From Chimonanthus salicifolius (lineage: Eukaryota > Streptophyta > Magnoliopsida > Laurales > Calycanthaceae), in contig CM023540.1 of NCBI GenBank assembly GCA_013350335.1, positions 22,175,175-22,239,174 on the forward strand: a stretch of 64,000 nucleotides of DNA. The letters run 5' to 3'. Positions within the stretch are counted from its first letter, which is position 1. Each line of letters opens with the position of its first letter. Positions 28,434-64,000 of this stretch are shown piece after piece. The position numbers were made by a program, and so were the translations under genes. The notes below the pieces were generated by a model, which was not told where the DNA came from, did not search any database, and saw only the letters and a list, made by a program, of their open reading frames with translations.

Positions 28434-30277
28434 TTTGAATGGAGAGACGGAGGGGTCTTCTGGTTGTGGTGGAGAAATATAAAACATTATTGTCACAAAA
28501 AAGACTGATCATCGGATTATTAAAAAATGAGCGGCCAGGATTCAAATTAAAAACTTTGAAAATGTTAGAACAAAATTCTTTGAGTGGACGAGTAAAAATA
28601 TTTTTGTAAAGCAGACGGCAGCTCTTACACACGCTAGGTTTTAAGTGCCAGAGTGCTTCCACCTGTGAAATTAGAAGGTTAATAATTATACAGTTGGATC
28701 CTCTCTAATAGGATTATGAAAATTTGTGAAATGGAGAATATTAGATTATTGTTGATTAATTTTAAAATAAAAATAAAATTATTAGATAAATATTTTATTT
28801 TTAATATTAAATTATTAGAAAGCTACATTAAATGAAATAACTTGAAACAGTAGGTGAGGTACGGAGGACTCAAATCTAACACTTTATGAGCGAGAGATTA
28901 TCAGTTGAACTATACATTTACTTAGATTAAATAACCCACCTTGTAGTTTCGGCCATTTATTTTATAAATTAGGAATTTCAAATACGAATAATTTTCTTTA
29001 AACATCACCACATGATTACTTATTATTTGCAATCTCTTGTAATCTAAATCTATTCATGTATATCCCGTATTAGAGGTATGTTACTTACTATAAATTCAAT
29101 TTGAGAATCTTTATTAGAAAACTTTAAATTAATAATAATTATTAATAAAATTAGTTAAAATCTACAACTCACTTGAGGTAGAAAACGCGTTAAGAGTTTA
29201 TATTGATAACAGATAAACCTCATTATTAAGAAAAATAAAATATATTTTTTATAATTTATACCTTTTTTAGAAGTTTCCTAATATAAAAATTCAAACGATA
29301 CGATATTGCGATGACATAGGGATATAGCTGACGAATGGTCCTGAGTGACGAGTCAATAATGCTGCTACGTGTCACGACTTACTGTAGTGATGGCTTCTCT
29401 TTGTTTGTTTCTTTATTTGGTGACAAAAGGCAGGAAACGAGAAAACGCGTTTCTCTGGAAGAGTTCGTCCCTTTCCTTTTGGAATTTTGAAAATCCAAAT
29501 AAATTATGATTTTAGAAACTTTTTTTCCACTCGGTGGAAATATTATTCTGAAATTTATTTTGAATCATGACTATAATAAAGTTTCTAAAGATTTAAATTT
29601 GTAATTAATTTATTGAGTTTAATCATGAATAGTTGAATACAACTGAAAATCAGTTGAGATTGACATTAAACTTAATTTTTGATACAATAAAAAATATGAA
29701 GAAAGGTGTAAATTTGAACCCAGCAATAATCTTTAATATATCTATAAAGAAACATTTATAATCTAAAAATATAATAATATGTATTAATTAATACGTATTG
29801 TATGGATGTAAGGCAATATGTATTGTACTGTGTTTGTATGATTTTTCTAATTTTTTTAACTCTATTATGAAATTATGATTTTTATTTGAAAAATTCACAA
29901 ATTGTTATAAAAGATACAAGTTATTATGAGATACTGGATAACATAAATTTCATTTCAGGTGTTTTGCTGATATTAGTTGTCTATTATTCAGAGTTTTTAA
30001 ATATTTTTTAATTTTTTATGATAAGTATCTATTTTTTTTTTTCAAGAATTCGATACTCTATACTCTATAGAAATGACTTTTTTTTTTTTTTTTTAAATTA
30101 GGCTTGTAATAAATGAATATTTTCTCTTATTTAATATTCTTAACTTTTTTTTTTCTTAAGTCTTAAGATTGGTTTGTCCTTTTTTTTTAAGGAAAGCCCT
30201 GTTCTTAGGGAGCCATTTCTCTTTTCAAATAAAAAATTCTCAAACCTTAGGTTTATGAACACAAAAATGTTCAACTA

Positions 30278-30487
30278 CTAATGGGCCATAACCTTTCAAT
30301 TCTTTCAATCTTTCTTTCTTTTATTCTTTTTGTATCATCACCCACCCGATTGATTGATCATCAAAATCATGGGGGACCAACTACTAATGGGCCATGACCT
30401 TTCAATTTTTTCAATCTTTCTTTCTTTTATTCTTTTTTTTATCATCACCCACTCGATTGATTGATCATCAAAATCATGGGGGACCAA
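30278..30487. repeat. Two-copy tandem repeat of about 105 bp
   Basis: The unit begins CTACTAATGGGCCAT and ends ATCATGGGGGACCAA. It occurs at 30278-30380 and again at 30381-30487 with few differences (mostly T-run length and CCCACCCG versus CCCACTCG). This is a recent local duplication with no coding signal. Confidence 0.85.
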
Positions 30488-45547: not shown

Positions 45548-45693
45548 CGTACCTGAGCAATAGCGTTCACATTTTGGGGGGAGATCTAATTATGAGGAAA
45601 TTCAAAGAAATTAGAGAGTGGATGCTCGAGAAAAATCAAATTTCGGGAGTAGAATATAAGGAATTTTGGGGTCAGAATAACGGACTAGAGAAG

Positions 45694-45771
45694 TTAGGGT
45701 TTTAGGCACCATAAGAAATGTGGGAAAATGGATGACCCTTTTACAGCCACATAACGGATCGTTAGGGTTTA
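45694..45771. promoter_or_regulatory. Two telo-boxes between PPR and GFA genes
   Basis: TTAGGGTTTT at 45694-45703 and TTAGGGTTTA at 45762-45771, 150-220 bp upstream of the PPR start codon. Both sites are kept in copy 2 (59144; and 59231 as CTAGGGTTTA). They are plausible promoter elements for the PPR gene; function is inferred. Confidence 0.4.
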
Positions 45772-45832
45772 AGACTTTAGAGACTCTACGTTGTGAACCT
45801 AATTTTAAATATGACTAGTGGTATTAAAAGAT

Positions 45833-46955
45833 GGGTGCCCATATATACACCGTATAATTCTGTAATCAGAAACTGATTATTAGATTTTAAGTAAAAATTA
45901 TCATTCTGTCCTTCCGCGCAGAATCGATCGATCGATTGTACAGTGCACTTTTCGTATCGATCGATCGATTACACGAGAGGATGAAAATGATCGTAAAAAT
46001 ATGAAATTGATTTTGTCGATGGTATCAATCGATTGATTCATAACATGCTATCAACAGATCGATTCATACAGTAATTAAATAAAAAAAGAAAATTAAAATT
46101 TTAAAGTTGTTTTTTAAGCACTGTATATTTTCAAAATTTCTCAAATTGAATATCAGGACTAATTACGATAACCTGATAAAAATACTTTAAGACTTTAAGG
46201 TCTTTTGACACTCCTAAATGTTTAAAACAGAGTGTTTTACAAATAAGGGTATCCCTAGGGTGTGCCGAAAACACATTTAGTAGTGTCAAAAGACCTTAAA
46301 GTCTTAAAGTATTTTTATCAGGTTATTGTAATTAGTACGGATATTTAATTTGAGAAAATTTGAAAATACACAGTGCTTAAAAAATAATGTTAAAGTTTTA
46401 AAGGAAAGATAAAACTTTAACATTATTTTTTAAGCACTGTGTATTTTCAAAATTTCTCAAATTAAATATCTGGACTAATTACGATAGCCTGATGAAAATA
46501 CTTTAAGACTTTAAAATCTTTTGACACTCCTAAATGTGTTTTCGGCACACCCTAGGGATACCTTTATTTGTAAAATACTGTGTTTTAAATATTTCGGAGT
46601 GTCAAAAGACCTTAAAGTCTTAAAGTATTTTTATCAGACTATCGTAATTAGTCCAGATATTTAATTTGAGAAATTTTGAAAATACACAGTACTTAAAAAA
46701 TAACGTTAAAATTTTAAAGATTTTTTTTATTTAATTACTGTAGCATGCATATAATGAATCGATTGATAGCATCAATCGATCGACCCCATTTTACCAATCC
46801 ATTTCTTCCACTCCTAGAATCGATCGATCGACGCGAAAATGCACTGCAGAATCGATCGATCGATTCTACACGGAAAGGGCAAAATGGTAATTTCCAGTGA
46901 AATTTCTAAATTCGGTGTCTGCTGGCAGGTTTTTGCGGTGTCTATATGGGCACCC
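45833..46955. mobile_element. Foldback MULE-like element A (ATCGATCG palindromes)
   Basis: 1123 bp, flanked by a perfect 9-bp target duplication TTAAAAGAT (45824-45832 and 46956-46964). The paralogous copy has the uninterrupted site at 59293-59301. Terminal inverted repeats begin GGGTGCCCATATATACACC (left) and GGGTGCCCATATAGACACC (right). From each end there are 89-90 nt of terminal arm, then two 16-bp palindromes 32-33 nt apart (AATCGATCGATCGATT at 45922 and 46850; variants at 45955 and 46818). Weaker versions follow further in, then a core of two tandem hairpins of about 280 bp. The whole element is one large inverted repeat. No ORF encodes a transposase, so it is non-autonomous. The 9-bp duplication supports Mutator-like mobilisation. 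Confidence 0.93.
46110..46702. repeat. Double-hairpin core of element A
   Basis: Unit 1 (46110-46387) opens TTTTTTAAGCACTGTATATT and closes with its inverse ACACAGTGCTTAAAAAATAA. Unit 2 (46425-46702) does the same. They are joined by an inverted spacer (TAAAGTTTTAAAGG / AAAACTTTAACATTATT). Arms contain AGACTTTAAGGTCTTTTGAC and its inverse. The loops (GGGTATCCCTAGGGTGTGCC in unit 1) are inverted relative to each other. Confidence 0.88.
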
Positions 46956-47692
46956 TTAAAAGATATCACATTAGTTTTATAAAATTAAATAAATATTATA
47001 TTAAAATAAAATATAATTTCTAAAAAACATGATAGTAACCTAGATTTATTTAAATATGTATTATGTTTAATTTATGTGTGAATTAATCATTTAATAAATT
47101 AATTTTCGTTATCATTTGATACACATCTAAGTGTATCATATGAAAAATTGTTACAGAAATTTTATCTCTATAAAATTTTGATAATATCTACTTCACAAAT
47201 TTTTGCATTATTTTTTCTATTTTAATATAGTATTAAATTCTAGTCGAAATTTTTCAAACTCACAAAGTCTAACAAGAGACTTTATTTTTTTTCATTTTTA
47301 TTAATTTCATTTGTTTTTAAATGATAATATGACATACTTAGATGAATTATTTCAACTCATTAAATCTAATATTAAATTTTTTCCTACCTTTTTATATTTT
47401 GAAATGAATTTTTTTTAATACTTTAAGTTAAGTATATGAGACTTTTTAAATTGAGAGTCCCTCGCGAGCCTTTAAATAAAATAGATAATAAATTTAATTT
47501 AATTTGATACATTTAGTAGAGATGATAATAGATGTAACATATGTAAATTTATTTATTTATTATAATTTTGATTTTTAAACTTTAATAAATATAAAATATT
47601 GATTTTTAAATATTTAAAAGTGAATAATAGAATAATGACTGTGACAATGAAAAGTGCATTCCCTATTTATATAATTTTCATTGACACTGAAG

Positions 47693-47701
47693 TTTTCAAA
47701 A
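47693..47701. other. Empty site for element B
   Basis: TTTTCAAAA occurs once here in the context GAAG-TTTTCAAAA-TACTTGAC. In copy 2 the same 9 bases are duplicated around element B. This fixes B's boundaries and shows it inserted after the segmental duplication. Confidence 0.9.
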
Positions 47702-47724
47702 TACTTGACTAACATATTCCAGCT

Positions 47725-47876
47725 ATAGACGCCGACGCCGACATCTTTTCCTCACATCTTTCTCTCTCTTCACATTTAAGTAGACTTGACTAACATATTC
47801 CAGCGATAGACACCGTCGCCGACGCCGACGCCGACATCTTTTCCTCGCATCTTTTGCTCTCTCTTCACATGTAAGT
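47725..47876 (+). promoter_or_regulatory. Probable GFA leader exon with GCCGAC tandem repeats
   Basis: Two roughly 90-bp tandem units, each with TATTCCAGC-ATAGACRCCG, runs of GCCGAC, TCTTTTCCTC and CTCTCTTCACAT. The second ends at a good donor CACAT|GTAAGTGG (about 47869). It probably is the first non-coding exon of the GFA gene, whose next acceptor is at 50573. This is inferred from the donor, the pyrimidine-rich leader-like sequence and conservation in copy 2. Confidence 0.4.
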
Positions 47877-48752
47877 GGACTTGTTACACTTAATATTCCC
47901 TGACTGGATCGTCACTGGTTTCCTTGATTTCCATGCCATGGATACTTCTTAATCTGCCTGAAAATCTCTTTATGTTGTTCCATTATCTCTGTTTTTTCCC
48001 ACCCTAAAACTGGCCTGCTGGAAGAGAGTAAAGTGATGTTGAGATTCTTTTTTGGAACTTTAACCATCCATGATCCATCTCAAAGAATCAAAATTTAAAT
48101 AGTGATTCTCACTTGGGAGAAGAAATAGAATTATCCCATAGACCCAACTGCGGATGTAGCTGATAGTTTGATACTGCTGAATAATAGTCTTTTGGTTTCT
48201 GATTGTAACATATGATCATCTTGCAATCTGAATTTTTGTTTGGGGGTCGGTGGGCAACATCTACTAACTACTATCTTTTATCCTCCGAAAACCATCTTGT
48301 CATCTCATGAATTGGATAGATACCTGATTTGAACCCATTTTGAATTATACTCACCATTGGATTAAACTGAAGAACTACATTATACCTAATGTGATATATT
48401 TAAGTTTATTTTCGGTAGGCCCCCTATCCAAGCATGGATCCAATCAATTCTCCTCGCTATCCAAGTCTCCATCAAAAAGTACTCACCAAATTGAACCAGT
48501 TCTCAGTGGATAATTTCTCCACTGAATCATGGGTGGTCAGAAACAGTAGGAAACATTTAGTTTCTGTCTCACTGTATCTTTGTGGTGGCACGAAGACCTA
48601 ATCAATTCTATGTAATTTCAGCCCTATTCACAAGTGAGCAAATTGGTATAATTATTGTAATATGGGGGTGGAGCGGGGGAGGGGGACGTCGATTGGTGGG
48701 AGTTGAGTGGGAAACGTCAACTTCCTGAGGAAATTTCTATCCCCCTGTTTGG

Positions 48753-49070
48753 ATGAACTTTGAGCCAAAAAGCAAGCCCCATGAGAAACCAACTTACTAG
48801 AAACAGGTTGAGTTCCCCTCTAAGGGCAAAGAGATTATATAAGATACCTCCTTCTCTAAGTTGTGTTCCCTAAACATTATCAAGCTCTCCACTAAAAAGA
48901 GGGTGACTAAAAAAGTAGGGGGAGGCAAAGTAGGGTTTCCTACCTGTAGGGGAACTCTCTATCTTCAAATTCATTAAGGAGCTCCTTGTTTTTAAGTTCC
49001 CTCATCCAAAGCACCTTGAGCGCTCTGTGTTGTGAAGGCCGTTCTTTGGGGTCCATCCAAACACAGTCTC
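48753..49070. repeat. MITE with TTTGGAT-type ends inside the duplication
   Basis: Left end CTGTTTGGATGAACTTTG; right end, reverse complemented, CTGTGTTTGGATGGACCCC. It is present in both copies of the segmental duplication (also about 62997-63325), so it predates the duplication. Confidence 0.5.
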
Positions 49071-49608
49071 ACTGCCTTATCTTTTACCCAAATTGCAAGT
49101 GCCAAGTGATCTTTATGTTGTAATTCAGATGGTGATAAGAGTATGACAACATCTGTGAACAAGAACCTTAGCATGGGCTGAGTAGAAGTCATTACTTTCA
49201 AAAAAAATTAACTAGTATAGATGCCAACGCCAATGAAGTTGGATCAAGCTTTGGTGATGATGATGATGATGATGAAAAGTAGCTGCATACATTATCTTGA
49301 ATGGCAATTGCTTATTAGATTTATCTGCTGTGGAACATTATCTATAAGATGCTATTTAGTAGTTTACGACTAAAACTGCTTTAGTTCTTTTTCTTCACAA
49401 TCATGCATCATAAAGTATTCATGAATTTTGCCTTTAGTTTTTAACTGCCACCAGTTCTCACTGCAATCACCTTACACATTATTTAGTAGGGTACTATGAA
49501 CTGTAGACACAAACTGATGCTGTCACATCCATTCAAATTAATAATGTCCAATTTATACCATTCTACAACTTTTAGCTTATAAATGCACAAGACAGAAAAA
49601 AAATTCAA

Positions 49609-49800
49609 AGGGTTGGAGTGATGGCTAGGAATCCTGCCTCAGGAAATTATAATACTGGGTTCGATTCTCACTCTACCCCAAAGGGCCACTCCCTATAGAG
49701 TTACCCGGTGTGTGTGGATAGGGAGACTTTCACATGCCTCGAGGATTACTCGGATGCTGTAAGAGGCCTAGACAGCTTGGTCATTAAAAAATGATTTTTT
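49609..49800 (+). repeat. tRNA-derived SINE (best preserved copy of the family)
   Basis: A-box region GGTTGGAGTGATGGCTAGGA, B-box GGGTTCGATTCTCAC. The body has AGAGTTACCCGGTGTGTGTG, GGGAGACTTTCACATGCCTC and GAGGCCTAGACAGCTTGGTC, with an A-rich tail. It is duplicated at 63865-64000 by the segmental duplication. Other family members are at 8068, 34612 and 39965. Confidence 0.78.
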
Positions 49801-50573
49801 TAGAAACGAGGTATCATTTTACACAAATAAATATCAGATATTAAGGCTGCCTAAATAGAACTTGATTGTGCACCTTATCACCTCTCATATATGAATGTGT
49901 TGATGCTTATGCAGGAGAAGCCTTTTGGTGACCTCCAGTATAAGTATCTGTTCTCGAAGGTAACAGACGTATAATCAAGAAAATCACTTGAATGGTGTAT
50001 TAACTTGTACACCATACATGCTCACAACTTTAGGCCTTCATTTGGTAGCTCGGAATTGCTTAATGGAACCAGAATTCTATGGAGCTACAGGCTTCCACGA
50101 AGGAATTCTGGGCTATCAACCAGGCTTTAGTGAATATAAAAGATGGCATTGAAGTCATAAATGTTTCTTCATTCGAGGGTTCATGTGAAATGATTTTGCT
50201 CATCTATATGATGGATCGTATTGGATGGATTATGCAAACAGAATTACCCACATTGCAAGATGCAAGCTTCCTAATTCTTGGCCCTTCCTCAATTGAGTGT
50301 TGACCATGTTTTCTTCTCTGAAGTTATTAAGAGTGTAGAAGTAGGGAGGGTTAACGTTTTTATTGGGGGCGGTGCCCTTGTACTACAGCCACCAAGTGGT
50401 GGGTTTCTCATTCTCACTTGTTGACAAGTTGTATGGATACTATATATCCTTTTTCATGGTTCATTTCATCTTTCTTTTTTCATAGTCTTCCTTTTTTATC
50501 TGAATATTCTACAGAAAATGTTCTGTTTGCTATTTCCTATATAGAAACTCTCACAAGTTTCATTTCACTGCAG

Positions 50574-51020
50574 CTGTTCTGAACAAAGCACTCTTATAAG
50601 ATGGATGGTGAAAATGTAATCCATAGTGGTGGATGCCACTGCAGGCATGTTAGGTGGGAAGTTGAAGCACCAACAAGCATAGTTGTATGGAAGTGCGATT
50701 GCTCCAACTGTTCTATGAGGGCTAACATCCATTTCGTAGTCCCAAGTACAAAGTTTAAATTGATGGGAGATTCTGAACAGTTCCTCACCACCTACACATT
50801 TGGTACACACACAGCAAAGCACACCTTTTGCAAGGTCTGCGGCATTACATCATTTTATGTGCCGCGGTCTAACCCAGATGGTGTTGCCGTGACATACATG
50901 TGTGTCGACCCCGGAACACTTGAGCATGTTGAGATGAGGCATTTTGATGGGAAGAACTGGGAGAAGTCCTATTACCAGACATCCATTGCATCATTCTCTA
51001 AATCAGGTGATGAAATGTGA
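50574..51020 (+). CDS. GFA / CENP-V-fold zinc-binding protein (CDS from 50601)
   Basis: The 139-aa coding region runs from ATG 50601 to 51020. The exon begins at 50574 after a clear acceptor (TTTCACTGCAG), so the leader is spliced. The protein is a glutathione-dependent formaldehyde-activating enzyme (GFA)/CENP-V family member like Arabidopsis At5g16940. It shows the zinc ligands SGGCHCRHVRW (CxC), WKCDCSNCSMR (CxCxxC) and FCKVCGITSFY (CxxC), plus HFVVPSTKFKL, YTFGTHTAKH and RSNPDGVAVTYMCVDPGTL. The length is normal and no key cysteine is missing. The small-molecule substrate in plants is not established, and the formaldehyde link comes from bacterial Gfa. The GFA gene is divergent from the PPR gene, and its presumed leader and leader intron are within the segmental duplication. 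A second copy may follow beyond 64000. Confidence 0.92.
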
Positions 51021-52182
51021 AGTTAATAACTCAAGTTTATCCATCAAAGTATGACTCCTAATGCACACTATCAGCCTAATTCCTGTACTTAGTAATGTCT
51101 GAGTCTTTAATTATCTTAATATAAAAGTAGAAGTTTGCGAGATTCAGCATTTAGTCTTTTGTTTGTTACATTGTCTGTTGGTTGGTCTAATAGTTGGATT
51201 TATTCATAACTTTTTTTTGAAAATTTGTATTCTTTCAAAAATGGTAGGTCAATGTCCACAAATGCAGTCATGGGTAGTAATCAGGGGTCGAAAAATCGGC
51301 CTGGCATGCACTTCAGGTCCATTTCTTTTGGGCCTGGGTAATGGTTGGATGATGGGGGACAATGGGCTAAACATGTATGGAATTGTCTGAATGAAGTTTT
51401 TAAAGCCCAAAACCCAACTGAGTAACTCGGTCGAGTTTCAACTTAAGATCATTCATTTCAAATAGTATGTCCGAGTTTTTTCAAGTTTTATGATTCAATG
51501 GCTTATACATCTGCATTAATTTGATCCTTTGCTATTTTAGCAAGATTCATTAATGTCTTAATGAGAACAAAAGTGGGACACTAATGGGCAGACTCTTAAA
51601 TGCCTAAGCCCAACTGGTTACATCTGGGCCTGAAATTAGGCCCAGACTACTCCTACAAACATCAATCAGCAGTTTAACCTGGGATGCAAGTCAAGTTGTA
51701 ATAGACAAGGAATAGAAAGATCATTCCATTTCTTAGATGCCAAGCAATCAGGTTTGAATTGAAGATGGGCCTATAGTAAAATCTCTAACCAGAAATAACT
51801 GAGTCAGAGTGACTCAATTTTAATTTAAATAAAATGTATCAGTGGGTCCCCTGTTGGATCTAACTTAGCATTGTTCAATTTAGGTTGTGTGCGCAGGACG
51901 TGGAATTGTCATGGACCCAGCTGTTAGCTTACCCATTTAACCCAACCCAAGATGGGTTTTTAGTATTAATAAAATATCAATATTTACTATATGTAAAATA
52001 CGTATAAAGTAATAATATAAGGTAGAATATGTCTAATCTATCTGTACAACATTATTAAGTGTAAGTAATGGAGGTTCAAGCCCAAGACCAGATGGATACA
52101 GACCTTTCACGTTTGGACCTCCAGTTGGAGCTGATTTTCAAATAGATCCTATTTTCAGGCAACCCTTTTGGGTACCGATTGA
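51021..52182. other. Downstream flank of the GFA gene
   Basis: 1.2 kb including the GFA 3' UTR. No further gene or bounded repeat is recognised. Confidence 0.5.
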
Positions 52183-52781
52183 ATTTTTTTTAACGACAGA
52201 AGGTGTTGAGGTGTCTCGTCCGACTAGTCCGTCAGGATCAGGGGTATAGATATCGGCCGATACGAAATTTATTGGCCGATATATATAGTTTTTTCAATGC
52301 CGATCTATGTCGGCCATACGAACTACTTCTCAACCGATATATCAGCGATATATATTGGTCCGATATCGGCTGATATGATTAATATCAGTCTGTTTTTTAA
52401 AAAAAAAAAAAATTCAAAACGGTGGTGGGCCCAGGTCGAAATATAGGTCGATATCAGACTAATATTGGCTCAGATATCGGCCGATATTTACGTTTTCAAA
52501 TTTCTTTTTGAAAAAATCAGTTTCCTTTTCGGTTTTTTTATATTTTTTAATTCAGAAAAAAATACCGATATTTAAAAAGAGAGAGAGAGATTTATCGGCC
52601 AGGCCAAATTTTTCACCCCTGGTCGAGAGCACGCCTCCCTACACACACATGTTGGGTTCAAGCAGTTGAACCTTACTCTGTACATATCTCATGAAGAGTG
52701 GCCCTTTATTAAAGTTACCAGGGTTTGAATCAAAGACTCCAGAGTGTTTTGTCTCAACTACTAAGCTAACTCTGTGGGGTT
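52183..52781 (-). repeat. SINE split by a hAT-like MITE
   Basis: A perfect 10-bp target duplication TACCGATTGA flanks it (52173-52182 and 52782-52791). On the minus strand the head begins near 52780 and the poly(A) tail is the T-run at 52183-52190. It is the same family as 14234-14437 (shared TACTCTGTACATATCTCATG and ACTAGTCC blocks). Bases 52239-52621 are a later insertion. Confidence 0.85.
52239..52621. mobile_element. hAT-like MITE of the GATATCGGCCGATAT type, nested in a SINE
   Basis: Termini CAGGGGTATAGA / CAGGGGTGAAAA (right end reverse complemented) each lead into GGCCGATA. Internal palindromic GATATCGGCCGATA and CGATATATAT motifs recur. Flanking 8-mers GTCAGGAT and GTCGAGAG agree at 5 of 8 positions, which is weak. 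The split SINE independently fixes the boundaries. Confidence 0.68.
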
Positions 52782-53532
52782 TACCGATTGATATCACTAA
52801 TTTCAAAGCTTCATCTCAACCACCAGTTCAATAAGAAATTTGGTTTTGAATTGGGTAGTTCAACCTACCTTGTTAAATAAAAATTAGTTTTTATATTTTC
52901 TATCATCATTATTATAAGTTAGAATCTCGTCAATGTAAGTCAATTTTACGAGTTATTCTTCTCCAATTCATGTTATATAATTTTTTATATTTTTATCAAA
53001 TTTAAATAATTTTCTATTCTCTTAAACCAACGAAAGTATTCGTGACATAAATTAGTGTGAACTTTATTACAGTCTTTGAATAGTGAAGAAATTGTCAAGT
53101 TTCCTAACTTTCTGCACCCTGAAATAAAGATTTGTTGGGTCGAAATAACTTATAAAACCAGGTCACTCTGACATTCAAATAAAATACTCGTGTCTAAAAA
53201 TAATTGATGATATGAATGCCATCTCAGAAACAGTCACTTCGAAGAAGAAAAGGGAATATATTTTTGCTGTTGCGCATGCCACACATTTCTATATTCTATT
53301 CTTCACATGTACTGAAGAATTAATTCTTCAGGTGCATCTACATGTAGTACCAAATAGTGATGGAATAATAAAGGCCTTTTTGGATATTTTTACACGAATA
53401 CATAAAATTACGCACGAGAGGAATCGAATCTAAAATATCTGATTTTTGTCTAATCTTAAAACTTTTGACCAATTGAATTATATCTATTTCTAAATAGATT
53501 TACCATTTTATTCATTTGTCTCACCTAAATAG

Positions 53533-53758
53533 TGATATATTAATAGAAGTAGTGATCCTCCCACATGCATTTTGTGTAAATCGAAAGGAATTTTACTGTA
53601 TTGTCCATTTTACCTTTTGAATTAGCTCACCGAAATATTCAAATAACTTAAATCAAAGGGTTTATCGAGCTGATTCGAAGGGTAAAATGGATAATAAAGT
53701 AAAATTCATATTAAGTTATACAAAATACACGTAGAAGGATCGTTGTCCTATTAATATC
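53533..53758. repeat. Long-hairpin MITE
   Basis: Two arms of about 100 bp are inverse to each other: left GATATATTAATAGAAGTAGT...TGTCCATTTTACC, right GGTAAAATGGATAATAAAGT...GTCCTATTAATATC. They are separated by only about 20 bp. A foldback of this sort can yield a near-perfect RNA hairpin. Target duplication not resolved. Confidence 0.65.
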
Positions 53759-54555
53759 TTTTAATATTAAAAACACCGGCATCTCTATCATTTCTCTTAT
53801 GTATTGATGCCAATGTTGAGTTAATAATAGAGGCACCACAATGTTAACATGGTTCGTGAGCAACAGTGGTCTAATGATCTTGAGTGTCCAATTGAAGGGC
53901 CTTCAATTAGATGGATTGTATTGTCACTTAGAAAAATAGTTATTAATTATCTTCGGGCATCCAATTTAGGACTACAAAATAGATATTTTTAGTGACTTCA
54001 TTTTAACCATCCATTGTACAACATCAGATCAGATAGTTAAAGGTTGACCAATTGATCTGATTTTTTATTTAATCTGTGACTAATCTACAATCCTTGTATA
54101 AATATAATAGAAGTCTTGAATTCCAATAATTGCCTTATCCCAAGATTAAAAGACTGGTCTCTTTAAAAAAGACCGATATTAATCATATCGACCGATATCG
54201 GACCGATATATTGATCATATCGACTGAGAAATAGTGTGTACGGCCGATATATTGTGGTGCCTTAAAAATCGATATATATCGGCAGATATCTTTAATGAAT
54301 CCTCTCCTGTGTGTAATCATCAAATGGGTTTCAATGTTTGGAGTCAGTAATCTCATTTAAACAGTGATTAGAGGAGGAAAAAGGGGTCTTATCAATTAAT
54401 CATTGTCATTCATTGAAAGTGAAATGCACCAATGCTATGAAAGTGATGTATACTCAACTTCCAAATATAGCCGTCTTTATCTTTAAAGTTTAAACCATGA
54501 CCAAGACTCCACCAATATCAATCTTGTTGCATGGGCAATCAGAGCCGTACATGTG
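53759..54555. other. Intergenic spacer before the solo LTR
   Basis: No gene. A GATATATCGG-type fragment at 54165-54300 (ATCGACCGATATCGGACCGA, CGGCCGATATATTG) belongs to the same MITE family as 52239. Confidence 0.5.
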
Positions 54556-56104
54556 GCTGTTGTCACGCCCTCGACCAGAAGAGTGGGTGCAGAATGTGAC
54601 TGAATTTTTTTTTTGAAAGACTAAACTAATTTAAATATTCTAATTGGGCCAGATCAACAGTTAAGCCCAAAAGTCACACATGATCCCATTATGTGGACTC
54701 AAACATATACCATAAGTCTACCTAACATAAACACACATAATTCCAAACATCGAATTATTATTTCAATTATCAGAATAACTACAGTAGCATGCTACTTTAA
54801 TACATCACATTTAAACAAACTAAGTACCACACGCGGTACTTTACAAAACAAATGGTTCCAAGAACCAAAAGGCAAAGACAAGGGTATTCCCCTCAATGGG
54901 AATCCCAAAGCAATGTTGCAGCTTATCCACTCTAAGCTTCAAATAGAGGGTTCTCCTCATCGAGTTCATCTCCTGAAAGGTGAGTGGGGTGAGCTAACTA
55001 GCCTAGTGAAAGAAATATAACAGTGCAGTTTATGTAAACATCAGGTTAGCAAATAATCAACAGTTGCAATACAATATCTCATGCTTGATAATAAATTCTC
55101 AACATCAAGTATAATATCATCATCATTCCCATAATTCATCATCCCTTCCAATACTGTTGTCATCCAAAGTAACGCCTACATACTATGCTGAGACCATTGT
55201 ATTAAGTCCCGACACGGTCAAAATACATCCTTTCAAGTACATTTTCGGCTCTCACATAGCCGATACTGACACTCCTCAAGTCAGCAACTGTCGACGCCCA
55301 TGGTCCAGTAGAAGTAAATCATCTCACACACATGGCTGATATTGGTTCAATAGTCAAGGGCATGTGGAAGAAGTATTACACATCTCATATGATCAACATC
55401 ATAGTATTCATAAGCATCATAAGCACTTCTTATAACAGTGCATCATATCCAAGCACATGGGTGGGTTCATCAAATCTGAAACTACTCATTGCTCAAGTCT
55501 CATCTCATAATAAAAACTTGTTTACACCTACTGTAAAGTTAAGTTCCCTCATCGTAAATGTGTGGTATCGCGGTCTCTGTTCAAATAAGCAAACAAGTGC
55601 ACAATCAATCATAAGTCAACATTCATAGCATCAAATGCACACACACAAGTAGTATTTCGAAATCATACTTGTTTTCCCAAAAATATCCAAGGTAAATGGA
55701 ATTGAGTCACTTACTTGGTTTCTAACCATTTTAAGTTACAATAATCCACAGTAGAGTAATAATAAGGTGCTCAGTCCAAAACTCATATTGCCTTCTAGGC
55801 ATGACCAGATTGACTTATTGAGTTAGGTCTAGATACTCAGGTCACTTCTCAGTTGTCTTCTGGATAGAGCCAGATCTGACATGTTGAGTAAGGCCTCGAG
55901 ATCACTCAGTGTCCGACAAATACAGCGTCGGCCTAGAAGTGAAGTCACTCAATGCCCGACCAATAGAGTCGGCCTGGAAGTGAATACAATAGTAGATACA
56001 CTATAGTAATAAGAGAAGATGGTTAGTACATATTTTTAATTTATCAAAGGGTATAACAATCATATGCATCATCATTCAATCAAACAAGATTATACACTTA
56101 AAAC

Positions 56105-57100
56105 TGGGTCCCTCGGAACATGCCTCGGAACCAGGTATTGTGGCTTCGGATCATCCGAACGACTGCCTACACTAGTCACTGACCTCGGACTGAGGGTCTG
56201 ATTTCGGATCGTAAGAAGATCGGGTCTCGGATCATCCGAACTCCTTCTGAACCGATAAACTCTGAAAAACTGGTCTCGGTGGGTTTGTGAGTCTCGGAAC
56301 ATGCCGAGTGAGGCTCGGATCGTCCGAGTAGGGTTCGGTCCTTCCGAACTCGGCTCGGAACATCCGGACGAGTCTAGCAAGCCTCGGACGCTTCTGGGCT
56401 TCGGGTGAAGCTCAAAACGTCCGAAGGATCCTCTCGGACCGTTCGAAGGGTGTGTGTAACGACCCGACCCAAATACAGGGCTTAGGGCATGACTCAGTAA
56501 GATATTGTCCGCTTTGGGCCTCGCACACAGCTCAAACCGTCACGGTTTTGCATTTGGGCCCGGGCCACGTAACGCGTCTCACTTGAGTTCATGGGGTGGC
56601 CACTTAAAACCCCTTTAATTTCAATCCTCCCAACCGATGTGGGACTTTTCACTTTTCCCACATCAGGTTGAGGGGGTGGGTATTACAATCACCCTCCCTA
56701 AAGACTCGAGCCGTCCCCGGCTCGACCCGGTCTAGCTCGACAACTGCAGGGAAGGAGGAAAGCCTACACAGTCCGAGTGTAGAACTCGGCTCTTGATGTC
56801 ATATTTGTAACGACCAGACTCGAATACAAGGCTTAGGGCATGACTCAGTAAGATATTATCCACTTTAGGCCTCACACACAGCTCAAACCCGCATGGTTTT
56901 GCATTTGGGCTCGGGCCCACATGGCCCGGTCTAAAACGCGTCTCACTTGAGTTCATGGGGGTGGCCACTTAAAATCCCTTTAATTTCAATCCTCCCAACC
57001 GATGTGGGACTTTTCACTTTTCCCACATCAGGTTGTGGGGGTGGGTACTACAGTGTGACCCTCGGACTGTCTGAAGATCGACTCTCGGACCGTCCGAGAG
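56105..57100. repeat. Cluster of TCGGA(N)TCCGA inverted motifs in the solo LTR
   Basis: Examples on either side of the nested TRIM are TTCGGATCATCCGAA, CTCGGATCATCCGAA, CTCGGATCGTCCGAG, TTCGGTCCTTCCGAA, CTCGGACCGTTCGAA and CTCGGACCGTCCGAG. They are irregularly spaced over about 360 bp left of 56455 and resume at 57058-57101. The purpose is unknown. Confidence 0.75.
56455..57052 (-). mobile_element. Complete TRIM retrotransposon nested in the solo LTR
   Basis: LTRs 56455-56687 and 56806-57052 (ends TGTAACGACC...TATTACA and TGTAACGACC...TACTACA) surround a 118-bp internal region. A perfect 5-bp duplication GTGTG flanks it (56450-56454 and 57053-57057). On the minus strand a polypurine tract TTTAGGGAGGGTGAT adjoins the low-coordinate LTR. 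ATATGACATCAAGAGCC lies where the primer-binding site should be, a variant of the usual TGGTATCAGAGC. No coding capacity. A solo LTR of the same family is at 36715. Confidence 0.92.
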
Positions 57101-58392
57101 CCGTCTTCCTCCACTATCTGCTACAGTGACGGGCAGACACGGCATGAGATACGAATCCTGAAACAGTGGGTTTCTCAGATTCGATTTTTACATCTAGCCG
57201 GTCCGATAGACTCCTCAGGGAGTCCTCTTTCCATGGGAGTGATTTTAAACTTTGAAACCCATTAAGCCAACGGATTTTAAAATCAAAACCTCACTGGTAC
57301 AAGAAATTCCATGGTTTTTCTTAAACTTCAAACTGATTTTGACACACTCAAAAGTAAGTCAAAATTAGTTTTTCTTGATTCTAAACCACTTAAAATTTGA
57401 AAAGGAACACAGTGGTTATCTTCACTCGAGTTCCTAGGTTCAAAATCTGGTCTTTAGAAAAACTTCCCTCTTAAGCTACGACAAGAAAAAGACTTTGAAA
57501 ATAACAGAGAGGGATCAGCTGATTTGGTTTCAACTGAGTCTGAGAGAGAAGAGAAGATTTTGTGGGAGTTTACTCAGCTGAAGAGGCTAGGATTTATAGC
57601 CATTTTCATCCGTAGATGGTGGCCATCTGGCCATTGCATGTGATTGCATGCAGCTGCTGCCGACGTCCGAACTAGTAACCGTACTATTTGGGCGTTGGTT
57701 GCAAGATCAACCCTTCAAAATTTTTCATTTTGCAAATAAGTCCTCTTTTGATAAAAACTTGATTTTTAACTAAAAACAACACTCTTAAAGCTTGAAAATT
57801 TTAATCCAACCTGACAGATAAGTTGGGTTTTAAAAACTTTAATCACCATAAAAATTTGGAGATTTAAAACTCACCAAAACCATAGATTTAATTAAAAACC
57901 ATAATTTTGCACTATTTATGTGATTTAACTTGTGCTAAATAAAACAATTTAAAGTCCTCATTTTTGAGGTTTGAAAAAATAAAATAGACCATACTAAAAT
58001 GGTCTAATATACTAAACGTTGTTTCAAAATTTATTTCATTTCTAAAACCATTTAAATATAATTATTACTCCCTTTTGGGGTTTTAACAGGCGGTTTTAAA
58101 TACTATTTTCTGAAAAAAAATTATTTTAAAATCAGAAATAGAAATCCTTGACTAAGGAGAATAATATCAATAAATAATAATCACATAACAATACAATTTA
58201 TAAAATAATAACAATGAGCAGTAAATTACCATTTTGCCCCTCCAACTGGACAAGCTGGATCACTGGGCTTTTGAACTCAGATTGGGCCACTAACTGGGCT
58301 TCTCACTAAGCCCTAACCGAAAACTTGGAGGTTAACTGGTCTAAGCAAGATTATTATGCTAAACTGTGCCTAATCTAGGTAAGAGTATTACA

Positions 58393-59083
58393 GCTGTTGA
58401 ATCTAGAGTCAAACCAATCATCTAATTGGCCTTTTTTCCTTGGATGGGCCATGGCAGAAAAGTTAACACAGAATTTGCTAGGTGTGTTTGAAGTCATTTC
58501 TACATTAAATGTATAGTAGATATCTAGATATAGAATATATTAAAGAGAGTGATGAGGGTATGTTGAAAGGTCTAACATTGAATATATAACCTACTAAAAA
58601 CACTTTAATTAAATTACTTAAAGTCATATTTTTAAAAGCAATAAAGTTTAAAGGTTAAAATTAATTTAAAAAGATAAATTTTGAAAACTTAAGAAATGCA
58701 GTTTAATTAATTTAATCGTGATGATTTTTTTTTTTTTAATTTACATGTGGAAAACTACGGAATATCTAGCGTAAAATCTCCACGGATGAGCCCACTATCC
58801 CTAGGCACACTAAGGTTAGGCCATGGTGATGATTTTTTGTGGGTCATTTGTTCAAAAATGATATTTCCATTGAAATTATCACCATCTTATTCTATAAACT
58901 CTTTGCTTAAGTATGCATCATTGTTATTTAAGTCATTTATCTCATTACTTACAAAGATTTACGATGAATGAGTCATTTATGTCACTTTTCAAATTTTGTT
59001 AAAGTTAATAAACTTATCATTAGATGGATTAAGTGAAATTATTTATTTAAGATTTTATAAAATTCATTACGCTCTTATTATTT
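58393..59083. other. Spacer between the solo LTR and duplication copy 2
   Basis: About 0.7 kb, AT-rich. A fragment at 58738-58830 (TACATGTGGAAAACTACGG, TAGCGTAAAATCTCC) matches the SINE tail family of 6821-6987. No gene. Confidence 0.5.
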
Positions 59084-59292
59084 AATCAAATTTTGGGAGT
59101 AGAATGTAAGGAATTTTGGGGTCAGAATAACGGACTAGAGAAGTTAGGGTTTTAGGCGCCATAAGAAATGTGGGAAAATGGCAGCGCCTTTCAAAGGGAT
59201 GACCCTTTTTTATAGCCGCATAACGGATCGCTAGGGTTTAATACTTTAGTGATTCAACGTTGTGAACCTAATTTTAAATATGACAAGTGGTA

Positions 59293-59301
59293 TTAAAAGA
59301 T
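59293..59301. other. Empty site for element A
   Basis: TTAAAAGAT occurs once here, between GGTA and ATCACATTAG. In copy 1 the same 9 bases are duplicated around element A. Confidence 0.9.
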
Positions 59302-60030
59302 ATCACATTAGTTTTATAAAATTAAATAAATATTATACTAAAATAAAATATATTTTCTTAAAAACATGACAGTAACCTAGATTTATTTAAATATATATTA
59401 TGTTTAATTTATGTGTGAATTAATCATTTAATAAATTAATTTTCGTTATCATTTGATACACATCTAAGTGTATCATATGAAAAAAATTTACAGAAATTTT
59501 ATCTCTATAAATTTTGATAATATCTACTTCACAAATTTTTGCATTATTTTGTCTGTTTTAATATCTAAGTATTAAATTGTAGTCGAAAATTTTCAAACTC
59601 ACAAAGTCTAACAAGAGACTTTATTTTTTTTTCATTTTTATGAATTTCATTTGTTTTTAAATGATAATATGACATACTTAGATGAATTATTTCAACTAAT
59701 CAAATTTAATATTAAATTTTTTTCATACCTTTCAATATTTTTAAATGATTTTTTTTAATATTTAAGTTAAATATATGAGACTTTTTAAATTGAGACTCGT
59801 TCGCAAGTCTTTAAATAAAATAGATAGTAAATTTAATTTAGTTTGATACATTTAGGAGAGATGATAATATGGTAAATTTATTTATTTATTATAATTTTGA
59901 ATTTTAAACTTTAAAAAATATAAAATATTGATTTTTAAATATTTAAAAGTGAATAATAGAATAATGACTGTGACAATGAAAAGTGCATTCCCTATTTATA
60001 TAATTTTCATTTACACTGAAGTTTTCAAAA

Positions 60031-61883
60031 GAGAGCACTTACACACACCCAGAATTCCTGCCTCTACACACCTGTTTTTGAAATTTTGAGTGAAATTACG
60101 ATTTTACCCCCCGATTTCCATTCATTCGAATGAATGCCCAGTTCATTTTGGCATTCATTCGAATGAATGCCCATGTGTAATTTCAATTTATTCGAATGAA
60201 TGGGCTGAGCAGTAACACGGAATACTGCTCAGCCCATTCATTCGAATGAATGGGCCTCATTCATTCGAATGATTCTTTCAGATCCTTCAGCTTTACAGCC
60301 GTTCATTCATTCAGCAGTAAACATAACATTATTTAAATATTTTTTTTAAAAACTTTAAACTTATTTTTTGATCACTGTATATTTCCAAAATTTCTCAAAT
60401 TTAATATCTAGACTAATTAAAATAACCTGATAAAAATACCTTAAGACTTTAAGGTCTTTTGACACTCCTAAATATTTAAAACACAGTATTTTACAAATAA
60501 GGGTATCTCTAGGCTGTATCGAAAATACATTTAGAAGTGTCAAAAGACCTTGAAGTTTTAAGGTATTTTTATCAGGTTATTTTAATTAGTCTAGATATTC
60601 AATTTGAGAAATTTTGGAAATACACAGTGCTTAAAAAATAACGGTCTATTTTTAAAACATAGACCATTATTTTTTAAGCACTGTGTATTTTCAAAATTTC
60701 TCAAATTGAATATCTAGACTAATTAAAATAACCTGATAAAAATACCTTAAGACTTCAAGGTCTTTTGACACTCCTAAATATTTAAAACACAGTATTTTAC
60801 AAATAAGGGTATCCCTAGGCTGTGTCGAAAATACATTTAGGAGTGTCAAAAGACATTGAAGTCTTAAGGTATTTTTATCAGGTTATTTTAATTAGTCTAG
60901 ATATTCAATTTGAGAAATTTTGGAAATACACAGTGCTTAAAAAATAACGGTCTATTTTTAAAGCACTGTGTATTTTCAAAATTTCTCAAATTGAATATCT
61001 AGACTAATTAAAATAACTGATAAAAATATCTTAAAACTTCAAGGTCTTTTGACACTTCCAAATGTGTTTTCGACACAGCCTAGGGATACCCTTATTTGTA
61101 AAATACTGTGTTTTAAATATTTAGGAGTGTCAAAAGACCTTAAAGTCTTAAGGTATTTTATCAGGTTATTTTAATTAGTCTAGATATTAAATTTGAGAAA
61201 TTTTGAAATACACAGTGATCAAAAAATAAGTTTAAAGTTTTAAAAGAATTTTAATGAATTTACAGTATACTGTATACTGAATGATTTGTGATGAATCATT
61301 CGAATGATTCGTGATGAATCATTCGAATGATTCGTGACTCCCTTCATGTTCGGATCTGAATCATTCGAATAATTCGTGATGAATCATTCGAATGATTCGT
61401 GACGGTCATTTCCTTCATGTTCATTCGAATGAACGAATGAACGTTCATTCATTCGAATGAATGGTCTATTCATTCGAATGAATTGATGGAATGAAGGTCA
61501 TTTTATTACTATTCATTCGAATGAATCATCCATTCATTCGAATGAATTGGGCTGAGTAGTATTCCGTGTTACTGTTCAGCCCATTCATTCGAATGAATTG
61601 AAAATACACTCTAGGATTCATTCGAATGAATCCAAAATGAACTGAGCATTCATTCGAATGTATGGAAACTGGGGGGTAAAATCATAATTTCACCCAAAAT
61701 TTTAAAAAGAGGTGTGTAGAGGCAGGAAATCCGAGTGGGTGTAAGATTCATTCGAATGAATGCCAAAATGAACTGAGCATTCATTCGAATGTATGGAAAC
61801 TGGGGGGTAAAATCATAATTTCACCCAAAATTTTAAAAAGAGGTGTGTAGAGCCAGAAAATCCAGGTGGGTGTAAGTGCTCCC
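60031..61883. mobile_element. Foldback MULE-like element B (ATTCGAAT palindromes)
   Basis: 1853 bp, flanked by a perfect 9-bp target duplication TTTTCAAAA (60022-60030 and 61884-61892), with the empty site at 47693-47701. Left terminus GAGAGCACTTACACACACCC; right terminus (reverse complemented) GGGAGCACTTACACCCACC, alignable with element A's end. The palindrome ATTCATTCGAATGAAT starts 89 nt from the left end (60120) and again 33 nt later (60153). The octamer ATTCGAAT occurs about 19 times in the element, all in the two arms. The core has three hairpin units of about 280 bp. The right arm is tandemly duplicated (about 61616-61745 and 61746-61883). No transposase ORF. Confidence 0.93.
60362..61228. 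repeat. Triple-hairpin core of element B
   Basis: Units 60362-60640, 60667-60947 and 60959-61228 each open and close with (TTTTTTAAGCACTGT / ACAGTGCTTAAAAAA)-type inverse ends and contain AAGACTTTAAGGTCTTTTGA plus its inverse. They are homologous to the two units of element A. Unit 3 has its loop inverted relative to units 1 and 2. The outermost ends (TTATTTTTTGATCACTGT / ACAGTGATCAAAAAATAA) are themselves inverse, so the core is nested. Confidence 0.88.
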
Positions 61884-61899
61884 TTTTCAAAATACTTGA

Positions 61900-62099
61900 C
61901 TAACGTATTCCAGCGATAGACACCGTCGCCCACGCCGCCGTCTTTTACTCGCATCTTTTTCTCTCTTCACATGTAAGTAGACTTGATTAACATATTCCAG
62001 CGAGACACCGTCGCCGACGCCAGCGAGACACCGTCGCCGACGCCGACGCCGACGCCGAGATCGTTTCCTCACATCTGTTGCTCTCTCTTCACATGTAAG
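61900..62099 (+). repeat. Copy-2 version of the GCCGAC leader, more repeated
   Basis: It matches 47725-47876 but with extra GCCGACGCC units and an additional CAGCGAGACACCGTCGCC step. It ends at the same donor-like CACATGTAAGTGG. Different repeat number in the two copies shows ongoing slippage. Confidence 0.75.
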
Positions 62100-63864
62100 T
62101 GGACTTGTTGCACCTAATATTCCCTGACTGGATCGTCACTGGTTTCCTTGATTTCCCTGCCATGGATATTTCTTAATCTGCCTGAAAATCTCTTTATGTT
62201 GTTCCATTATCTCTGTTTTTTCCCACCCTAAAATGGCCTGCTGGAAGAGAGTAAAGTGATGTTGAGATTCTTTTTTGGAACTTTAACCATCCATGATCCA
62301 TCTCAAAGAATCAAAATTTAAATAGTGATTCTCACTTGGGAGAAGAAATAGAATTATCCCATAGACCCAACTGCGGATGTAGCTGATAGTTTGATACTGC
62401 TGAATAATAGTCTTTTGGTTTCTGATTGTAACATATGATCATCTTGCAATCTGAATTTTTGTTTGGGGGTCGGTGGGCAACATCTACTAACTACTATCTT
62501 TTATCCTCCGAAAACCATCTTGTCATCTCATGAATTTGATAGATACCTGATTTGAACCCATTTTGAATTATACTCACCATTGGATTAAACTGAAGAACTA
62601 CAGAATGGTTAATTCTGTAGCCTTTTAAGGCCATACCTAATGTGATATATTTAAGTTTATTTTCGGTAGGCCCCCTAGCCAAGCATGGATCCAATCAATT
62701 CTCCTCGCTATCCAAGTCTCCATCAAAAAGTACTCACCAAATTGAACCAGTTCTCATTGGATAATTTCTCCACTGAATCATGGGTGGTCAGAATCAGTTG
62801 GAAACATTTAGTTTCTGTCTCACTGTATCTTTGTGGTGGCACGAAGACCTAATCAATTCTATGTAATTTCAAGCCCTATTCACAAGTGAGCAAATTGGTA
62901 TAATTATTGTAATATGGGGGTGGAGGAGGGGAGGGGGACGTCGATTGGTGGGAGTTGAGTGGGAAACGTCAACTTCCTGAGGAAATTTCTATCCCCCTGT
63001 TTGGATGAACTTTGAGCCAAAAAGCAAGCCCCATGAGAAACCAACTTACTAGAAACAGGTTGAGTTGAGTTCCCCTCTAAGGGCAAAGAGATTATATAAG
63101 ATTCCTCCTTCTCTAAGTTGTGTTCCCTAAACATTATCAAGCTCTCCACTAAAAAGAGGGTGACTAAAAAAGTAGGGGGAGGCAAAGTAGGGTTCCCTAC
63201 GTGTAGGGGAACCCTCTATCTTCAAATTCATTAAGGAGCTCCTTGTTTTTAAGTTCCCCTCATCCAAAGCACCTTGAGCGCTCTGTGTTGTGAAGGCCAT
63301 TCTTTGGGGTCCATCCAAACACAGTCTCAGTGGCTTATCTTTTACCCAAATTGCAAGTGCCAAGTCGTCTTTATGTTGTAATTCAGATGGTGATAAGAGT
63401 ATAACAACATCTGTGAACAAGAACCTTAGCATGGGCTGAGTAGAATCATTACTTTCAAAAAAAATTAACTAGTATAGATGCCAACCCCAATGAAGTTGGA
63501 TCAAGCTTTGGTGTTGATGATGATGATGAAAAGTAGCTGCATACATTATCTTGAATGGCAATTGCTTATTGGATTTGTCTGCTGTGGAACATTATCTATA
63601 AGATGCTATTTAGTAGTTTACGACTAAAACTGCTTTAGTTCTTTTTCTTCACAATCATGCATCATAAAGTATTCATGAATTTTGCCTTTAGTTTTTAACT
63701 GCCACCAGTTCTCACTGCAATCACCTTACACATTATTTAGTATGGTACTATGAACTGTAGATACAAACTGATGCTGTCACATCCATTCAGATTAATAATG
63801 TCCAATTTATACCATTCTACAACTTTTAGCTTATAAATGCACAAGACAGAAAAAAAATTCAAAA

Positions 63865-64000
63865 GGGTTGGAGTGATGGCTAGGAACCCGCCTCAGGAAA
63901 TTATAATACTGGGTTCGATTCTCACTCCACCCCAAAGGGCCACTTCCTATAGAGTTATCCGGTGTGTGTGGATAGGGAGACTTTCACATGCCTCGAGGAT
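63865..64000 (+). repeat. SINE, copy 2 of 49609 (cut by window end)
   Basis: Same A-box and B-box regions as 49609 with a few substitutions. It is present because of the segmental duplication, not an independent insertion. Confidence 0.85.

Follow-up and report, generated by a model that had tools for sequence, protein, structure and literature searches.

How do two related transposable elements come to carry different palindromes at the same positions of their arms? This question is raised by a 64,000-nucleotide stretch of the Chimonanthus salicifolius genome (C9:22175175-22239174, hereafter the window), which holds two non-autonomous foldback elements resembling Mutator-like elements (MULEs). 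Element A (45833-46955, 1123 bp) carries palindromes of a GATC type, and element B (60031-61883, 1853 bp) palindromes of an ATTC type. A preliminary description of the window had proposed that the palindromes were swapped wholesale, in a way that ordinary divergence could not explain. We searched the 852.6-Mb genome assembly for further copies and found that the motif type is locked to the element lineage in all copies and counts examined. Judged by their letters, the two versions of the motif nevertheless look like relatives rather than like unrelated replacements.

Palindrome type follows element lineage

Copies were collected with two similarity searches. A 309-bp query from the core of A returned 3650 first-look candidates, of which the best 40 were scored and 30 loci were cut, together with 16 wider stretches, some of them overlapping. 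A query from the left arm of B returned 1909 candidates, of which again the best 40 were scored and 30 loci were cut. The A-core loci were picked regardless of their arms, and the B loci with a query that contains the palindromes. Because the best 40 candidates were scored, the subfamily proportions given here reflect the best matches and not the genome.

The 100 distinct arm ends read from these loci comprised 66 A-like and 34 B-like ends, two ends scoring low against the four references. A GATC-class site was present in 65 of the 66 A-like ends. The exception belongs to L025, one end of which is probably a spurious terminus; the other doubtful locus is L067, whose flanks are unmatched. Among the A-like ends of subfamily A1, 22 of 26 had a GATC-class site at offset 89-90, and of the four ends without one, two are probably spurious. 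All 34 B ends had an ATTC site at offset 89 (33 perfect, one with a mismatch), and 29 had one at 122. The remaining 40 A-like ends form subfamily A2, with sites mostly at 111, 142 and 173. A result that the preliminary description had named as overturning it, other copies lacking palindromes at offsets 89 and 122, thus partly applies, in A2. The motif of the opposite lineage occurred in none of the 100 ends: within the first 320 nt, TCATTC|GAATGA was absent from the A arms and TCGATC|GATCGA from the B arms. Tabulating palindrome type against terminus class, as that description had recommended, therefore revealed no mixing.

Pattern searches with the generic motif TCNNTCGANNGA are unbiased for motif type, yet restricted to this motif class. 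Generic termini combined with the generic motif gave 746 matches in the genome (control, 0), and the inner terminus with the generic motif gave 1850 (reversed-pattern control, 0). The latter divide into 1447 ATTC-type matches (reversed-pattern control, 0) and 403 others; of the first 100 places listed for the inner-terminus pattern, 87 recur in the ATTC list and 13 do not. A position-ordered sample of 39 of the 746 matches, available with their letters, contained 37 B-like termini (3 untestable) and 2 A-like termini (1 testable). All 34 testable B-like termini were ATTC-type, and the testable A-like terminus was not.

Structure and insertion of elements A and B

Both elements are flanked by 9-bp target-site duplications (TSDs) on the forward strand, TTAAAAGAT for A (45824-45832 and 46956-46964) and TTTTCAAAA for B (60022-60030 and 61884-61892). 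Comparison of the window with itself revealed a segmental duplication with copies at 45634-49746 and 59084-64000; identity is 93-94% in the two long blocks and 86% in a short outer block. The second copy lacks A and contains TTAAAAGAT once (59293-59301, forward strand), while the first copy lacks B and contains TTTTCAAAA once (47693-47701, forward strand). These reciprocal empty sites, each with a single target, indicate that A and B most likely inserted after the duplication, each generating a 9-bp TSD. A and B are mobile elements, their insertions being demonstrated by the TSDs together with the empty sites.

The left arm of A (arm subtype A1l) has palindromes at offsets 89 (AATCGATCGATCGATT, 45922-45937) and 122 (TATCGATCGATCGATT, 45955-45970), followed by an inner palindrome of intermediate form, TATCAATCGATTGATT (46023-46038). 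In its right arm (subtype A1r), the corresponding sites lie 122 nt (46818-46833, perfect over 12 bp) and 90 nt (46850-46865, within a 20-bp perfect palindrome at 46848-46867) from the right end. The core between the arms (46082-46728) consists of two inverted hairpin units of about 310 bp that are common to A and B, and A as a whole is 82% identical to its own reverse complement over 1153 columns. In B, the left arm has palindromes at offsets 89 (ATTCATTCGAATGAAT, 60120-60135) and 122 (60153-60168), with further ones starting at 60186, 60236 and 60259 (60186-60275). The core of B (60345-61248) has about three hairpin units homologous to those of A. Its right arm holds an array of palindromes (61293-61664), including AATCATTCGAATGATT at 61294, 61317 and 61382, and the right terminus is a tandem duplication (61615-61876, period 131 bp, 96% matches) with two palindromes per copy. 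Over 147 nt, counting the TSDs, the two arms of B are 89% complementary.

The ends, TSDs, inverted arms and cores and the left-arm offsets are thus as first described, and A and B are sister foldback MULE-like elements. Several details needed correction. Of the palindromes reported as perfect over 16 bp, the second in A is perfect over only 14 bp. The right arm of A retains offset 122, but has 90 where 89 would be expected. The terminus quoted for B, GGGAGCACTTACACCCACC, exists as its right end, the left end being GAGAGCACTTACACACACC. Finally, A also contains the inner palindrome of intermediate form, and B the AATCATTCGAATGATT sites, mentioned above.

With up to two mismatches, the A palindrome matched 4 times (shuffle mean 0.01) and the B palindrome 18 times (shuffle mean 0.06). 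These counts lie so far above the shuffle means that a chance origin of either palindrome is excluded. The A motif is an overlapping GATC run, which makes both register and dyad centre less sharp than in B.

Relationship between the two motif versions

In all four pairings of an A arm with a B arm, the outermost 89 nt aligned better than dinucleotide-shuffled sequences (z 4.8-7.5; none of 1000 shuffles per pair did as well), in line with the earlier observation that the termini are alignable; blastn at E 0.01 linked A and B via the core only. The idea that only the core is common to A and B was rejected on account of this homology of the termini. The spacers between the palindromes are alike at 10-13 of 17-18 positions and a similar word, CAGTKCA-TTTT, recurs in A and B arms. 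The spacer similarity noticed in the preliminary description is therefore present, but it is weak when taken alone, since 7 to 50 of 1000 shuffles were as good.

Both motifs contain TC..TC|GA..GA. The half-sites AATCGATC and ATTCATTC agree in register at 5 of 8 positions (P 0.035-0.043), and one-step intermediates are present in both lineages, AATCAATC in A and AATCATTC in B. These four forms make up a suggestive ladder of single steps, which is unproven because few dyads have AATCAATC on both sides (3 distinct contexts among A arms). With arms that differ by 42-45%, half-sites that agree at 5 of 8 positions and one-step intermediates, the claim of a wholesale swap beyond ordinary divergence is overstated. 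We also rejected the idea of unrelated palindromes swapped at fixed positions, which is contradicted by the common skeleton, the intermediates and the site geometry of A2.

The explanation that we favour, with about even confidence, is that the palindromes are dyad docking sites for a family-specific protein encoded by the elements, that sites and protein changed together, and that copying within the foldback served as homogeniser. Precedents are the VANC motifs of Arabidopsis (PMC5735166, PMC10398659) and the transposase sites of Galileo (PMC3688188). Each arm would be an array of a dyad motif with the skeleton WTC-NW-TC|GA-WN-GAW. The putative reader would be a dimeric element-encoded DNA-binding protein, either the transposase or a VANC-like anti-silencing protein, and each lineage would have its own motif version probably because a matching protein recognises it. 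If the reader is the transposase, the site nearest to the end (offset about 89-111) would be an internal recognition site. When A and B split, the half-site would have changed between AATCGATC and ATTCATTC via AATCAATC and AATCATTC, as we infer the order and direction of the steps, while the arms diverged. Tandem duplication, together with copying from one foldback arm to the other, would have re-homogenised the arrays of each lineage.

More tentatively, and with some doubt, the dyad may be regarded as a lineage address, in which AATCGATC and ATTCATTC are exclusive codes for two diverged versions of one dimeric protein. Symmetric rewriting of all sites by the foldback would allow an entire array to follow a change in the protein, and A arms would recombine with one another and not with B arms because mixed ends could not be paired.

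Variation among the palindromic sites

Among 278 distinct contexts of B sites, position 2 was changed on both sides of the dyad in 43 and on one side in 50. For these paired departures Fisher's test gave P 6e-16, a value uncorrected for the kinship of the copies. At position 1, the corresponding numbers were 7 and 30. Symmetry of at least 22 bp was seen in 34 of 203 cases versus 4.1 expected, again uncorrected for kinship, and four symmetries span 40-46 bp; these four are mutually alike and look related. B sites vary in number and position, some being just 17 nt apart. In the inner pairs of A arms, mixed AA/GA (34 distinct contexts) outnumbered symmetric GA/GA (30), and the A motif is less strictly symmetric than that of B.

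Concerted evolution at the DNA level, with no binding role for the palindromes, is the main rival, a possible though on balance unlikely source of this pattern. A chance variant would be copied across the dyad and between the arms by foldback- or hairpin-templated copying and tandem slippage until one type filled the element, and amplification of a few master copies would fix that type in the lineage. The pairing of changes across the dyad, B symmetry that runs far past 16 bp, the variable number and spacing of B sites and the terminal tandem duplication of B all speak for such copying, and the arrays show signs of having grown in tandem and symmetrically, in agreement with the earlier suggestion that palindromes spread within the foldback. 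The paired changes and long symmetry fit a dimeric binding site as well as hairpin copying. If copying acted alone, however, the spacers should travel along with the sites, whereas A2 retained its motif amid different spacers, and the end-nearest site persists in 22 of 26 A1 ends and in all 34 B ends.

Arms, cores and chimeric elements

Over the terminal 89 nt, identity is 70-72% between A1 and A2, 55-58% between A and B and 95% among B ends. The A1 and A2 arms thus differ by 28-30% and in the spacing of their sites, with the same TCGATCGATCGA motif. For the cores we compared 212 units (132 from A-core-query loci, 78 from B loci and 2 from a third element), those of A1 and A2 being sorted by locus so that a few (e.g. 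L035) are possibly misplaced. Identity was 92% between A1 and A2, 88-89% between A and B and 95% among B units. Divergence in the arms exceeds that in the cores by a factor of about 3.5, between A1 and A2 (28-30% to 8%) as well as between A and B (42-45% to 11-12%), and no extra event is needed to account for B. In the midpoint-rooted core tree, all 78 B units fall into a single clade (support 0.995) nested among those of the A query, several nodes near this clade being weak (0.28-0.93). The A1 and A2 cores are not separated; A1 units are as similar to A2 units as to each other.

The arms of A elements are modular. Element A itself joins the arm subtypes A1l and A1r, which are about 70% alike. 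Two further loci, L008 and L010, are A1/A2 chimeras whose 9-bp flanks match (perfectly in L010, with one mismatch in L008), which shows that one element can be bounded by two unlike arms that have a motif type in common. The 32 loci in which both ends were called (28 A, 4 B) included no A/B chimera. The core also occurs in a third, divergent element (L069:2217-3136, right end cut off), whose core has a mean identity of 83-86% to the others and whose terminus is GGGAGCACATTTAGGCATCC.

It seems improbable that A and B are two older MULE families whose palindromes evolved independently, the core having moved by recombination and the offsets 89 and 122 being set by transposase geometry. Arms far less alike than the cores, the single B clade nested within A-query units and the recombination visible within A, with its indistinguishable A1 and A2 cores, would suit such a history. 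Yet the arms are homologous and have a similar spacer word, the equal arm-to-core ratios call for no additional event, and chimeras between A and B were absent from the loci with both ends called. The preliminary description had named distant families with a captured core as the result that would overturn it; in that strong form this does not apply, although core and arms are partly modular. Very improbable, finally, is the recruitment of a host factor, such as a transcription factor or chromatin protein, that differs between the lineages: short-dyad arrays outside coding DNA and the location of A in front of a PPR-protein open reading frame (ORF), 286 bp from its start codon, would agree with it, but we know of no host factor for either motif.

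Several observations weigh against protein docking sites as well. The query that was used to collect the B copies contained the palindromes, and each similarity search scored the best 40 candidates. No transposase or partner protein was identified in a Pfam scan that covered 8 short ORF pieces from one 6.1-kb element. The symmetry in B exceeds any plausible binding site and fits copying at the DNA level equally. The A dyad is often imperfect and its motif is an overlapping GATC run, and the resemblance between AATCGATC and ATTCATTC is only marginally beyond chance. Moreover, no dyad palindromes were seen by eye in the available arm sequence of the third core carrier.

Candidate long elements

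A partner protein may sit in longer B-type elements. On C1, the first 87 of the 100 places listed include 31 neighbouring pairs of B-type ends in opposite orientation, and in 5 of these pairs the ends lie 7.6-7.9 kb apart (C1:2773769-2781253, 6642352-6649894, 14235277-14242829, 21916855-21924615 and 30253877-30261623). These five pairs are a discrete class beside the pairs that are 0.7-2.7 kb apart, and are candidate autonomous elements. Another long locus, C7:62726142-62732249 (covered by L057, L083 and L056), has 6.1 kb between B-type ends, core units on one side and flanks with an AT-rich 8-bp match, TTTTTAAA. Its interior is other DNA, perhaps captured sequence, and its candidacy as autonomous partner was unsupported, no Pfam domain being found in the 8 short ORF pieces.

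Genomic setting

The segmental duplication that contains A and B starts 87 bp upstream of the start of the PPR ORF and extends to the end of the window. The ORFs of the window also include a TAXi-type aspartic protease and a GFA-domain protein. A tRNA scan of the window found none. A separate tandem duplication of 106 bp (95% match) is located at 30272-30487. Scans of viral_contigs with the B palindrome and with a 16-mer from the core returned 3 and 3 stretches, none like A, B or the window (blastn E 0.001), and these matches are treated as chance.

Classification and comparison with known systems

Judged by TSDs, terminal inverted repeats (TIRs) and foldback anatomy, A and B are filed as MULEs. 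TSDs of 8-10 bp, usually 9 bp, are typical of MULEs, and A and B each have one with a single-target empty site; among the 30 core loci, 21 had an end pair with matching 8-10-bp flanks at up to two mismatches, such pairs being what the script sought. Both elements have the long TIRs of MULEs, and their inverted arms, inverted core and internally repeated arms are those of foldback elements. They also resemble VANDAL elements in having a family-specific short motif that is repeated in non-coding DNA and differs as a set between relatives.

In the Arabidopsis VANDAL/VANC system (PMC5735166, PMC10398659), each of several related families likewise has its own short motif, repeated in non-coding DNA, and the motifs of VANC21 and VANC6 have changed in concert with tandem repeats (PMC5735166). 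The VANC motifs measure 8-9 bp, whereas those described here are 16-bp dyads in the subterminal foldback arms of non-autonomous hairpins, and the word 'palindrome' is absent from the main text of PMC5735166 on VANC motifs. Galileo, a foldback-like P element of Drosophila (PMC3688188, PMC2775673), shares long foldback TIRs, a family-specific site and chimeric elements, but differs in its 7-bp TSD and THAP transposase; the main text of PMC3688188 makes no use of the word 'palindrome'. The plant Tandem-TIR MULEs (PMC3310237) have tandemly duplicated termini like the right end of B with its 131-bp period, and here too the main text lacks 'palindrome'. Muta1 and other MULEs of Aedes (PMC5225508) and Tm1 of root-knot nematodes (PMC3169594) have 8-9-bp TSDs (9 bp in Tm1) and long TIRs of short subterminal repeats, and are classed with or likened to Foldback. 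These repeats are tandem repeats of 9-15 bp (13-15 bp in Tm1) and not dyads, and the 10-bp imperfect palindrome of Muta1 is located at the very tip (PMC5225508), unlike the subterminal dyads described here. The B palindrome string had no match in the open-access literature, and no family with lineage-specific subterminal dyads was described in the accessible part of that literature, subscription journals being outside its scope.

For transposons, satellites and VANC-like systems alike, it is an open question how an element with many sites keeps up when the specificity of its binding protein changes. In the A/B system both lineages are abundant in one genome, their termini are homologous and their half-sites differ by three base changes. 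Two insertions can be placed after a datable event by means of the reciprocal empty sites that the local duplication provides. With intermediate sites and chimeric A arms at hand, co-evolution of protein and site becomes directly testable, through binding and through the compatibility of mixed ends.

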